A stretch of 64,000 bases of DNA, from contig NZ_CP066167.1 of the NCBI RefSeq assembly GCF_016132545.1, positions 2,383,001 through 2,447,000 on the forward strand, written 5' to 3'. Positions within the stretch are counted from its first letter, which is position 1; each line of letters begins with the position of its first letter. A program made the position numbers and the translations under genes. Of the stretch, positions 59,551-62,139 are shown piece after piece. This DNA comes from Spongiibacter nanhainus. GTDB lineage: Bacteria; Pseudomonadota; Gammaproteobacteria; Pseudomonadales; Spongiibacteraceae. Under the pieces are notes generated by a model. It did not search any database, was not told where the DNA came from, and saw only the letters and a program-made list of their open reading frames with translations.

Positions 59551-60021
59551 ATGTCACTGGAAATTGAACGCCGCTTCGTACTGGATGAGTTACCCGAAGA
59601 CTGGCGACAGCAGGCCAAAGCAATCGCCATCAAGCAGGGCTATTTAATTATTGAAGAGCGCCGCGAGCTTCGGCTGCGCAAAAAAGGCACGCGCCACTTA
59701 ATGACCGTCAAGTATGGCACCGGATTGATGCGGGACGAGCAAGAGCAGGAAATCGATGCCGGCCTGTTCGAGATGCTTTGGCCACTGACTGAAGGCAAGC
59801 GACTGGAAAAGACCCGCTACAGTATGTGGGTGGGCGATGACCTCTACGAGGCCGATGTCTTTGAGGGGGGGCTGGCCCCTTTACTCATGCTGGAAGTCGA
59901 GTTCGCCACCGAAGCCGACGCCAATCGATTTACACCACCGGATTTTGGCTGCCGCGACGTTACCGACGATCCACGTTACAAAAATGCATCACTGGCGAAA
60001 CACGGTCGCCCAGAGGATTAG
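59551..60021 (+). CDS. CYTH domain (triphosphate tunnel) protein
   Basis: 156 residues from the ATG at 59551. EIERRFVL (E4-x-E6-x-R8, the ExExK/R hallmark) and IKQGYL, RLRKKGTRHLMTVKYGTG and YEADVFEGGLAPLLMLEVEF are the tunnel-lining strands of the family, which hydrolyses inorganic triphosphate or makes cAMP. The Arg in place of Lys in the hallmark is common in the polyphosphatase-type group. It lacks the C-terminal CHAD part that is often fused to it; that part is the separate gene two positions upstream. Confidence 0.87.
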   Translation: MSLEIERRFVLDELPEDWRQQAKAIAIKQGYLIIEERRELRLRKKGTRHLMTVKYGTGLMRDEQEQEIDAGLFEMLWPLTEGKRLEKTRYSMWVGDDLYEADVFEGGLAPLLMLEVEFATEADANRFTPPDFGCRDVTDDPRYKNASLAKHGRPED

Positions 60022-60042
60022 AACCGCTTCCCGGCTCGATAC

Positions 60043-60072
60043 AAAAAAGCCCCGGCTGTCGCCAGCCGGGGC
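60043..60072 (-). terminator. intrinsic terminator (minus strand)
   Basis: GCCCCGGCTG-N4-CAGCCGGGGC is a perfect 10-bp stem with loop GCGA (minus strand), followed on that strand by TTTTTT. The T tract is on the minus side only, so it ends leftward transcripts: the candidate small RNA, and perhaps pycB, which stops 204 bases upstream. Confidence 0.88.
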
Positions 60073-60110
60073 CAATACGGAGAGACAAATCCGCAACGGT
60101 GGGTGTGTCA

Positions 60111-60120
60111 GGGGGGGGGG
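60111..60120. repeat. G10 homopolymer
   Basis: Ten consecutive G on the plus strand, in the convergent gap between the CYTH gene and pycB; C10 in the candidate small RNA. Homopolymers this long can change length by slippage. Confidence 0.9.
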
Positions 60121-60147
60121 AGAAACGCCACACCGCCGCGCGATTCA

Positions 60148-60174
60148 TGTAAACGATAATTCATATCATTTACA
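60148..60174. promoter_or_regulatory. 27-bp near-palindrome with a Fur-box-like core
   Basis: TGTAAA-N15-TTTACA with inner arms GATA and TATC; ten of eleven positions pair in each half. The core CGATAATTCATATCA matches the Fur pattern TGATAAT-N-ATTATCA at 11 of 14 positions. It lies across the candidate small-RNA promoter. Confidence 0.55.
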
Positions 60175-60276
60175 ATTGCAACAACCGCATCCCATTTTTT
60201 GTCTTTTAAGGGCAGCCACCCTCACTTCAGCGAGGGTCGATCACCAGCGCCCATCGCAATGACGGCGCACGAAGTG

Positions 60277-62088
60277 CTATAGCGCCTCTATCTCGATCAA
60301 TACCTCACCCGGTGTGACCCGGTCACCTTTACTGACGTAAATTTCCGTCACCGTACCGGCAATGGGTGCTTGCACCTCGGTCTCCATCTTCATGGCTTCC
60401 GCCACCAACAGTGCCTGGCCTTCTTTGACCTCGTCGCCCTCGGCGACCAGTACCTCGACAATGTTGCCGGGCATATTGGTGGTAACATGCCCCGGTGCAC
60501 TGGCTTGTTTGCGACCGCTGCCACCCTCGGCCTTGAACTCGTTGAGGGCCTCGAAAACCACCTCTTCAGGCATGCCATCCAGGGTCATGTAAAGGTGGCG
60601 CTTGCCACTGCCCTTCATACCGACACCGGTAATGGCAACCTGATAACTCTCGCCGTGGACGTCAACGATAAACTCGGTGGGCACACCGCCCTCAGTCACC
60701 GGCCGCTCGCTGCCGCCTATCGGCTCCAATACTTCTGGCACCAGTGTTCCGTCCCGCCGCTGCTGGAGGAACTCGCGTCCCAGATCAGGGAACATGGCAA
60801 AGGTGAGAACGTCCTCCTCGCCCTCTGCCAAATCGCCAATATCGGCGCGCAGCTTATTTAGTTCAGGGGGTAGCAAATCGGCGGGGCGTACATCAATCAC
60901 ATCCTCAGAGCCGATCGCCTTGGCCCGCAACTCCTCGTTCACCTGGCCCAAGGCGGCACCGTAGTGACCTTGCAGATAGCGCTTCACTTCATTGGTAATG
61001 GTGGCGTAACGCTTATCGGCCAACACATTCATCACCGCCTGAGTGCCGACAATTTGCGAGGTGGGCGTGACCAGCGGCGGATACCCGAGGTCTTTGCGCA
61101 CAGCGGGAATTTCGGCAAACACGTCGTCGATACGGTTCAATGCGCCCTGCTCTTTGAGCTGATTGGCCAGATTGGACATCATGCCGCCGGGCACCTGGTT
61201 GATCTGCACGCCAACGTCTTCCCGGGTAAATTCGCTTTCAAACTGGTGGTATTTTTTGCGCACCTCCCACAACTGCCTGGCAATGCTCTGCAACTTGGGC
61301 AGTTCCAGACCGGTATCCTGGGGAGTGTCTTTCAGTGCCGCCACCATGGTTTCGGTGGCGGGGTGACTGGTGCCATTGGCAAAGGCGGACATTGCCGTGT
61401 CGATAATGTCGACGCCAGCATCGATCGCCTGCTGCTGACACAGCCCTGCCAGCCCAGAGGTCATATGAGAGTGCAATGCCAGCGGCAGATCAAATTCCGC
61501 TTTCAGCGCCGCTACCAATTCGGCGGTAGCGGTGGGCGTTAACAGGCCGGCCATATCTTTGATGGCGATGGAATCGATGCCCATGTTCACCATATCCCGG
61601 GCCTGCTGAACAAAGGTCTCAGTGGTATGCACCGGGCTGGTTGTGTAACAGATGGTGCCTTGGGCGTGCTTACCAGACTTTTTCACCGCCGCAATAGCGG
61701 TTTCAAGATTGCGGACGTCATTCATGGCATCAAAGATACGGAATATATCCATGCCGTTATCGGCGGACTTTTGCACAAAGGCCTCCACCACATCGTCGGC
61801 ATAGTGGCGGTAGCCCAGCAGGTTCTGGCCCCGCAGCAACATTTGCAGCTGAGTATTGGGCAAGGCCTCCCGCAGCTGCCGCAGCCGCTGCCAGGGGTCT
61901 TCCTTGAGAAAACGCACACAGGCGTCGAAGGTAGCGCCGCCCCACACTTCCAGCGACCAAAAACCAATAGCGTCCAACTCCGGGCACACCGGCAACATGT
62001 CGTCGGTACGCAGCCGGGTGGCGATCAGTGATTGGTGGCCGTCTCGCAAGGCCACGTCGGTAATTTTGATGGGCTTGGCTTTACTCAT
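60277..62088 (-). CDS. pycB: pyruvate carboxylase subunit B (carboxyltransferase with biotin carrier)
   Basis: 603 residues from the ATG at 62088. The carboxyltransferase TIM barrel has VALRDGHQSL and the metal-binding SHxx His pair in LALHSHMTSG; the C-terminal biotinyl domain carries Lys567 in EAMKMETEV. The sequence also resembles the oxaloacetate decarboxylase alpha subunit, but no membrane beta or gamma subunit genes follow, so the soluble pyruvate carboxylase reading is preferred. It fills the oxaloacetate pool. 51 bases after the pycA stop. Confidence 0.92.
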   Translation of the reverse strand: MSKAKPIKITDVALRDGHQSLIATRLRTDDMLPVCPELDAIGFWSLEVWGGATFDACVRFLKEDPWQRLRQLREALPNTQLQMLLRGQNLLGYRHYADDVVEAFVQKSADNGMDIFRIFDAMNDVRNLETAIAAVKKSGKHAQGTICYTTSPVHTTETFVQQARDMVNMGIDSIAIKDMAGLLTPTATAELVAALKAEFDLPLALHSHMTSGLAGLCQQQAIDAGVDIIDTAMSAFANGTSHPATETMVAALKDTPQDTGLELPKLQSIARQLWEVRKKYHQFESEFTREDVGVQINQVPGGMMSNLANQLKEQGALNRIDDVFAEIPAVRKDLGYPPLVTPTSQIVGTQAVMNVLADKRYATITNEVKRYLQGHYGAALGQVNEELRAKAIGSEDVIDVRPADLLPPELNKLRADIGDLAEGEEDVLTFAMFPDLGREFLQQRRDGTLVPEVLEPIGGSERPVTEGGVPTEFIVDVHGESYQVAITGVGMKGSGKRHLYMTLDGMPEEVVFEALNEFKAEGGSGRKQASAPGHVTTNMPGNIVEVLVAEGDEVKEGQALLVAEAMKMETEVQAPIAGTVTEIYVSKGDRVTPGEVLIEIEAL

Positions 62089-62139
62089 GATAGTACTCGC
62101 TTTTCTCTGATTCCTGGCATCGGCCGGGGCCGCCTGCAA

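Follow-up and report, generated by a model that had tools for sequence, protein, structure and literature searches.

The window, the whole 64,000-nt stretch of Spongiibacter nanhainus DNA that was analysed, contains a 255-bp intergenic gap (60022-60276) on which two genes converge. On one side, a plus-strand open reading frame (59551-60021), named CYTH in a preliminary description of the locus, matches no Pfam family at E≤1e-3. On the other side, pycB/oadA (60277-62091) lies on the minus strand and encodes a protein with matches to the Pfam families PYC_OADA (E=3.6e-55) and Biotin_lipoyl. Both genes lie outside the unit described here; pycB, the upstream neighbour on the same strand, serves as its synteny anchor. 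The preliminary description had proposed a small RNA gene in the gap, and re-reading of the sequence located all of its elements on the minus strand between 60181 and 60042. A -35-like TTGCAA (60181-60176) is followed, after a 17-nt spacer, by a -10-like TATCGT (60158-60153), and a 27-bp near-palindrome, TGTAAA-N15-TTTACA (60148-60174, core 60154-60168), extends over the spacer and the -10 element, the latter being located within its right half. The RNA, with a predicted length of about 105 nt (60146-60042, the positions of both ends deduced from the sequence), comprises a 5' hairpin (60146-60087) with ten consecutive C residues in its apical loop (60120-60111), the linker UCUCUCC (60085-60079), an intrinsic terminator stem-loop identified by a terminator scan (60073-60048) and a U6 tail (60048-60043). 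The terminator stem has 11 pairs; the last is a G-U pair that involves the first T of the T6 stretch, a residue that is counted in both the stem and the tail.

The TTG of the -35 element is invariant in an alignment of eight copies, and the -10 element of these copies reads TATCAT, TATCGT or TATTGT; the TTGCAA/TATCGT pair was not listed by a generic sigma-70 scan of the window. TGTAAA-N15-TTTACA occurs nowhere else in the 64-kb window, in which 0.01 occurrences are expected. The core of the palindrome, TGATAATNATTATCA, has three mismatches to the Fur consensus, in agreement with the 11 matches in 14 positions counted previously. Core sites with three mismatches in 14 positions occur four times in the window, compared with 0.73 expected, and 126 times in the 4.08-Mb genome, compared with 59 for a reversed control pattern. 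Since such sites are common, the box in the window is by itself weak and would not prove Fur control; its conservation in related genomes is what lifts it above chance. The window genome encodes three proteins of the FUR family (best E=1.1e-41). Fur motifs with at most two mismatches were looked at in 16 of its loci; four of them precede genes for two TonB-dependent receptors, a solute-binding protein, which may have a role in iron supply, and an imelysin, and the remainder lie before other genes or within genes.

Several further Fur-like sites were encountered. Two adjacent 15-mers with three mismatches each lie at 36-67 of the window, at the 3' end of a minus-strand open reading frame (65-724) that by eye is histidine-phosphatase-like. 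In the window genome (G000), a box with two mismatches is located at the start of a gene for an AraC-like regulator (L178, G000:C1:3041074), beside a gene that resembles PQQ dehydrogenase genes and encodes a CxxCH stretch (both assignments by eye), and another with two mismatches precedes a gene encoding a cytochrome c domain (Pfam; L176, G000:C1:2118203), the product of which is an iron-using and not an iron-uptake protein. Another palindromic Fur-like site, in genome G014 (L010, G014:C1:1565692), came to light through its resemblance to the window's operator.

Among 57 related genomes searched with blastn, nine had a match at E≤0.01, the genome of origin included. Five of these besides the genome of origin, each assigned to the same GTDB genus, have a match that spans from the -35 element into the terminator stem. 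The same arrangement 3' of pycB, with near-perfect Fur boxes, is present in Zhongshania aquimaris, another Zhongshania and Neomelitea salexigens, a genome that the taxonomy lists under Spongiibacter marinus; in Zhongshania sp. BJYM1 the copy is farther from pycB. The RNAs of these four are identical to those of G008, G003, G013 and G004, respectively. A covariance search had been suggested as a check on the candidate, and model R1 was built from eight training sequences of the RNA only. The promoter was excluded from the model, which makes the Fur box upstream of each match an independent check. R1 matched 14 of the 18 genomes of the genus (the Spongiibacter/Zhongshania group) with E<1e-4, six of them outside the training set (G001, G004, G005, G007, G016, G017), and the conservation extends beyond the hairpin alone. 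Upstream of 12 of the 14 homologues, a Fur-like core with 0-3 mismatches in 14 positions occurs at a constant offset of 8-9 nt ahead of model position 1, over what is predicted to be the RNA's own promoter. Ten of these cores have 0-1 mismatch; those of the window genome and G006 have three. In G001 the best match is displaced and has three mismatches, and in G005 the box has decayed or been lost. Among 76 control segments downstream of pycB in other genera, the best 12-position core had three mismatches in two segments and four to six in 74. Most homologues have a near-consensus box; the copy in the window, with its three mismatches, is a weak one.

In 390 genomes of the order, R1 identified 17 at E≤0.003, 13 in the genus and four outside it (G021, G108, G212, G250). 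The latter four were dismissed as chance matches, as none has a Fur box; their best cores have 3-6 mismatches in 12 positions, and the sole core with three mismatches sits at an odd place. The searches of more than 40 genomes were run with strict filters and may have missed diverged copies. In another genus of the family (G018-G020), none of three genomes contains a convincing copy. The window genome itself yields two weak second matches to R1, at G000:C1:3908682 (E=0.024) and 639958 (E=0.41). A second model, R2, restricted to the Zhongshania type of the RNA described below and run on ten genomes, gave 17 matches at E≤1, 15 of which were looked at. Twelve of these were rejected because there was no Fur box within four mismatches; by eye they resemble terminators of rRNA operons and other terminators. 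The other three were the copy in G005, a remnant in G010 and the true copy in G011. As far as R1 and the strict filters can see, the family appears to be confined to one genus-level group of the Spongiibacteraceae.

The predicted 105-nt RNA of the window folds with -52.5 kcal/mol (z=-4.9), a value not reached by any of 200 shuffled sequences; a 106-nt version has a z of -5.3, and the 12 of the 14 RNAs that were folded against shuffles have z values between -3.5 and -7.1. Of the 14 copies, 13 share the same predicted layout, in which a long 5' hairpin, its terminal loop holding at least CCCCC, is followed by an open UCUCUCC linker and the conserved terminator. The exception is G005, in which the promoter is damaged, the RNA folds differently and the linker reads GCUCUCC. 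Two sub-types can be distinguished, a Spongiibacter type containing UCUCUCCGUAUU with a variable 5' flank and a Zhongshania type containing GAUUCUCUCC[A/G]AUUU. Covariation was counted only in the Zhongshania type because a joint alignment of the two types is poor in the hairpin. In the alignment of seven Zhongshania-type sequences, 93.5% of the cells pair and covariation is modest, with four pairs changed on both sides, a count reached in 32 of 500 shuffles. According to the preliminary description, the C10 run would be the pairing segment. The run is predicted to be unpaired (probability 0.56-1.0). At least one run of this length arises in 33 of 100 shuffles, so that its occurrence is unremarkable. 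It is probably not the main seed; the linker, which the preliminary description did not mention, is better supported. The CCCCC of the apical loop is constant in 14 of 14 copies although its flanks differ between the two sub-types. The linker is predicted to be unpaired with a probability of 0.74-0.99 in the Spongiibacter type, 0.22-0.29 in six Zhongshania-type RNAs and 0.0 in G005. The U-tail and the linker would be compatible with a dependence on Hfq.

The RNA begins 54-134 nt past the pycB match in 12 copies and about 1.95 kb past it in G004 and G007. The two distant copies retain a Fur box with 0-1 mismatch, and their distance from pycB indicates that the sRNA is a gene of its own. In G004 an open reading frame of 565 codons lies between pycB and the sRNA. 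An extra gene in this position was seen in G004, G007 and G010 (L012, 5012-6709; L129, L135, L125); it was established as a complete open reading frame in L012, where its 565-residue product has by eye a lipoprotein-like start. The three genomes do not form a clade on the pycB tree, as would result from insertion and later loss or from transfer. G010 retains, at the distant place, a remnant that by eye consists of the terminator only. Neither R1 nor the narrower R2 detected a copy in G002, G009 or G015; these negatives are the weaker since R2 misses the window genome and gives E=0.12 for the true copy in G011. On a pycB tree rooted with other genera as outgroup, presence of the sRNA changes three times, and two of the changes are forced by well-supported branches. 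We read the changes as about three losses or decays, in the clade of G002, G010 and G015, in G009, the placement of which is without firm support, and in G005.

Complementarity to mRNAs of iron-using proteins was found for sodB and sdhC, with energies and accessibilities that are mixed. The Shine-Dalgarno (SD) sequence of sodB, which encodes Fe-superoxide dismutase, is GGAGAGA in 16 of the 17 genomes in which sodB was found; the exception, G009, is also without the sRNA. In G003, the genome sequence of which is 84% complete, sodB was not found. The Watson-Crick run between the linker and the sodB SD of the same genome is 7-11 nt in 12 of 13 pairs, comprising every genome in which the sRNA is intact and sodB was identified, and 6 nt in G005. 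Runs of 7-11 nt were present in none of the four control regions (0/14, 0/14, 0/14, 0/13). The motif is rare at start codons, the pattern GGAGAGAN{3,9}ATG occurring at 53 sites in G000 (control 18) and at 30 in G008 (control 15). Among 141 background start regions of G000, with gene starts assigned by a simple script, GGAGAGA is present in none and GGAGAG in seven. The extensions of the pairing partly track the type of the sRNA: GAUUCUCUCC is matched by GGAGAGAAUC in five Zhongshania-type genomes, and GUCUCUCC by GGAGAGAC in three Spongiibacter-type genomes but not in the other four (G001, G006, G012, G013), in which the pairing ends at 7 nt. In four genomes with a lost or damaged sRNA (G002, G005, G010, G015) the sodB SD still reads GGAGAGA, a persistence that ribosome binding alone would explain. 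By plain duplex energy, 11 of 141 other start regions of G000 are as good as sodB or better, which places sodB no higher than 12th of 142, and its GGAGAGA is poorly accessible, with a predicted unpaired probability of 0.00-0.06.

In sdhC the complementary sequence lies in the leader, which begins, by our estimate, 129-164 nt before the GTG start codon. GGAGAG occupies a hairpin loop of this leader wherever the sRNA is intact (13 of 13 genomes) and is absent from the leader in the other five. The probability of this distribution would be 1.2e-4 if the genomes were independent; as they are related, the fair count is about three losses, each of which is matched. In these three apparent losses the GGAGAG loop is gone, and the hairpin itself persists, by eye, in two. 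Zhongshania-type genomes have a longer complementarity, up to AUUGGAGAG, which is entirely Watson-Crick in G004 and G008 and includes one G:U in four others; duplexes of the whole linker have energies of -18 to -21 kcal/mol in six of seven genomes. The Spongiibacter type has 6-7 complementary nt. The strict Watson-Crick run at sdhC is mostly 6 nt; a run of at least 7 nt occurs anywhere in the leader in three of 14 pairs, one of them that of G011, where it lies elsewhere in the leader. The predicted unpaired probability of GGAGAG is 0.00 in six Zhongshania-type leaders, 0.01-0.2 in G011, G014 and G000, and 0.57-0.97 in the other four genomes. When the full leader is folded, GGAG forms a tetraloop in the three Zhongshania-type leaders shown, which means that pairing would have to begin there and open the stem. 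In the window genome (around G000:C1 1832175; L199, L308), sdhCDAB has a long leader with a conserved promoter and a hairpin with a variable stem. The sdhCDAB leader may contain a hairpin dedicated to receiving the sRNA, far 5' of the start codon and kept only as long as the sRNA exists, an idea to which we give slightly less than even chances. If it is true, the genus would be a natural experiment on how a Fur-controlled sRNA and the sites that it targets arise and decay, and the sRNA family would have arisen independently of RyhB and PrrF. That the hairpin is a CsrA site is a live alternative.

With G:U pairs tolerated, a seed search of the window genome returned 22 sites against 18 for the control, no excess; the sRNA locus is itself among the 22, and another site lies at SD spacing before a gene for a 106-residue protein without a Pfam family (L153). 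GGAGAGA serves as the SD of, among others, genes for a Rieske oxygenase, NadA, MsrB and an ABC ATPase read as SufC in G000, and for a Rieske oxygenase and an IscA-like protein in G008. When the two lists were compared by eye, sodB alone was clearly orthologous between them, and we therefore propose none of the other genes as a target.

It is highly probable that the gap contains a Fur-controlled sRNA gene, as judged from the conserved RNA and the position of the operator-like box. The preliminary description was very probably right both about the sRNA and about its control by Fur. In the mechanism that we propose, a free-standing gene encodes an sRNA of about 105 nt, probably of the Hfq-dependent type, and iron-loaded Fur would repress its transcription at the operator over the -10 element and the spacer. 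When iron becomes scarce, Fur would leave the operator and the sRNA would be made. Its single-stranded linker (UCUCUCC and flanks) would then pair with the SD of sodB, such that ribosome entry is blocked, and also with the GGAG(AG) of the hairpin loop in the sdhCDAB 5' leader. The outcome would be reduced synthesis of iron-using enzymes, that is, iron sparing. An action in trans agrees with the two copies remote from pycB and with the potential to pair with sodB and sdhC, the classical targets of iron-sparing RNAs. From the sequences compared here we infer that both mRNAs are likely to be direct targets. As a whole, the reading as a new Fur-repressed, iron-sparing sRNA, unrelated in sequence to known ones and directed at sodB and sdhC, is one that we consider probable.

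Explanations that dispense with these targets, or with the gene, have to be weighed against this reading. The sRNA may be genuine and Fur-regulated without acting on sodB and sdhC. GGAG would then be no more specific than the generic SD core, the sdhC leader hairpin would be a CsrA/RsmA site, and the pairing with the real targets would involve the C-rich loop or another segment. CsrA is known to recognise GGA in a hairpin loop, a motif that the sdhC hairpin fits. Persistence of the sodB motif in four of the five genomes in which the sRNA is lost or damaged also speaks for this explanation, as do the poor predicted accessibility of sodB, of many sdhC leaders and of the Zhongshania-type linkers, and the loop CCCCC, which is present in 14 of 14 copies and is left unexplained by pairing of the linker. 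On the other hand, the 7-mer GGAGAGA is uncommon at start codons and yet conserved at sodB, where the extensions partly follow the sRNA type, and loss of the sdhC loop coincides with loss of the sRNA. Moreover, a study of such sRNAs describes both sodB and sdhC as targets of RyhB and PrrF (PMC7377471). We regard the non-target explanation as unlikely. A somewhat smaller chance is given to a dual origin, in which the sRNA arises from its own promoter and, in addition, by processing of the pycB 3' UTR, read-through supplying a basal, iron-independent pool. The shared strand, the short distance and the apparently common terminator would fit such an origin, but nothing requires it, and the arrangement in G004 and G007 makes it less likely in these genomes.

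Much less probable than either is the notion that there is no separate sRNA and that the conserved segment is the terminator region of the pycB mRNA, with a palindrome that is an unrelated operator or due to chance. The segment does lie on the same strand shortly past pycB in 12 of 14 genomes, and in the stretch from pycB to the sRNA the terminator scan of the window shows no further site. A terminator, however, needs no conserved loop, linker or -35/-10 pair, and the Fur box is retained by the copies that are 1.95 kb from pycB. The least credible of the alternatives is a short Fur-controlled messenger for a small protein. A 23-codon frame with a GTG start is common to the Zhongshania-type copies of G003, G004, G016 and G017, and another frame is found in three related copies of the Spongiibacter type (G006, G012, G013). 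But the first of these frames is interrupted in G008 and absent from G007 and G005, and the second, which bears no relation to it, continues across the terminator. The small-protein reading was rejected since no frame is conserved over the family, which bears out the preliminary description, in which no convincing protein was seen. What is conserved is thus best described as a short, presumably noncoding RNA that ends in an intrinsic terminator.

A likeness to RyhB and PrrF in layout and not in sequence had been noticed, and the present comparison with known systems upholds it: Fur-like boxes and complementarity to sodB and sdhC are found, and no Rfam family fits. None of 4227 Rfam families reached its gathering score at the locus, the only such match in the window being a tRNA elsewhere, and membership in an Rfam family was rejected because all scores were below the cut-offs. 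PrrF1 and PrrF2 of Pseudomonas (RF00444) share with the RNA a Fur box over the promoter, a hairpin and a GC-rich terminator, and sodB and sdhC are confirmed PrrF targets according to PMC7377471. The scores for PrrF, however, are 17.7 bits in the window, where other families score slightly higher and all are far below their cut-offs, and 35.4 bits in G011, compared with a gathering score of 90. PrrF is the nearest of the iron sRNAs, still below threshold, and in G011 the best Rfam match; when this model, which includes the promoter, is aligned there, mainly the Fur box and the terminator are matched and not the PrrF core. RyhB of enterobacteria, which is Fur-repressed and has sodB and sdh among its repressed targets, would be similar in action if our reading is right, but it is not among the 20 Rfam matches at E≤10 for 60020-60220.

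Lineage-specific sRNAs of the iron response are known from other bacteria, and a limited literature search revealed no relevant sRNA report for Zhongshania or Spongiibacter. HrrF of Haemophilus, NrrF of Neisseria and ArrF of Azotobacter are lineage-restricted iron- or Fur-regulated sRNAs; one paper gives mod, asn and nrdB as targets of HrrF, and titles in its reference list connect NrrF with sdhA/sdhC and ArrF with sodB (PMC4144887). They belong to other lineages, and their sequences were compared with the present RNA through the Rfam scan. IsrR of Staphylococcus and FsrA of Bacillus are Fur-regulated iron-sparing sRNAs with C-rich motifs, which in IsrR are located in loops or beside a stem (PMC9410917). 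These are Gram-positive systems, the sequences of which were likewise compared via the Rfam scan only, and the best seed in our RNA is a pyrimidine linker. RusT of Caulobacter is iron-responsive, and no Fur site is reported for its promoter (PMC11005374). BrrF of Burkholderia, as PMC7377471 describes it, is a lineage-specific low-iron sRNA with a sequence unlike known ones that acts on sdhC and sodB; it lacks a Fur box immediately upstream and presumably comes with hemP. The sRNA described here differs from BrrF in having a Fur-like box on its own promoter. In the marine lineage Spongiibacteraceae it would act as the negative arm of iron control, and the intact, decayed and absent copies within one genus make the co-evolution of an sRNA with its targets directly testable. 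If our reading is correct, one more sRNA, apparently unrelated to RyhB, PrrF and BrrF, would share their two targets and would strengthen the case for convergent evolution of iron-sparing RNAs.
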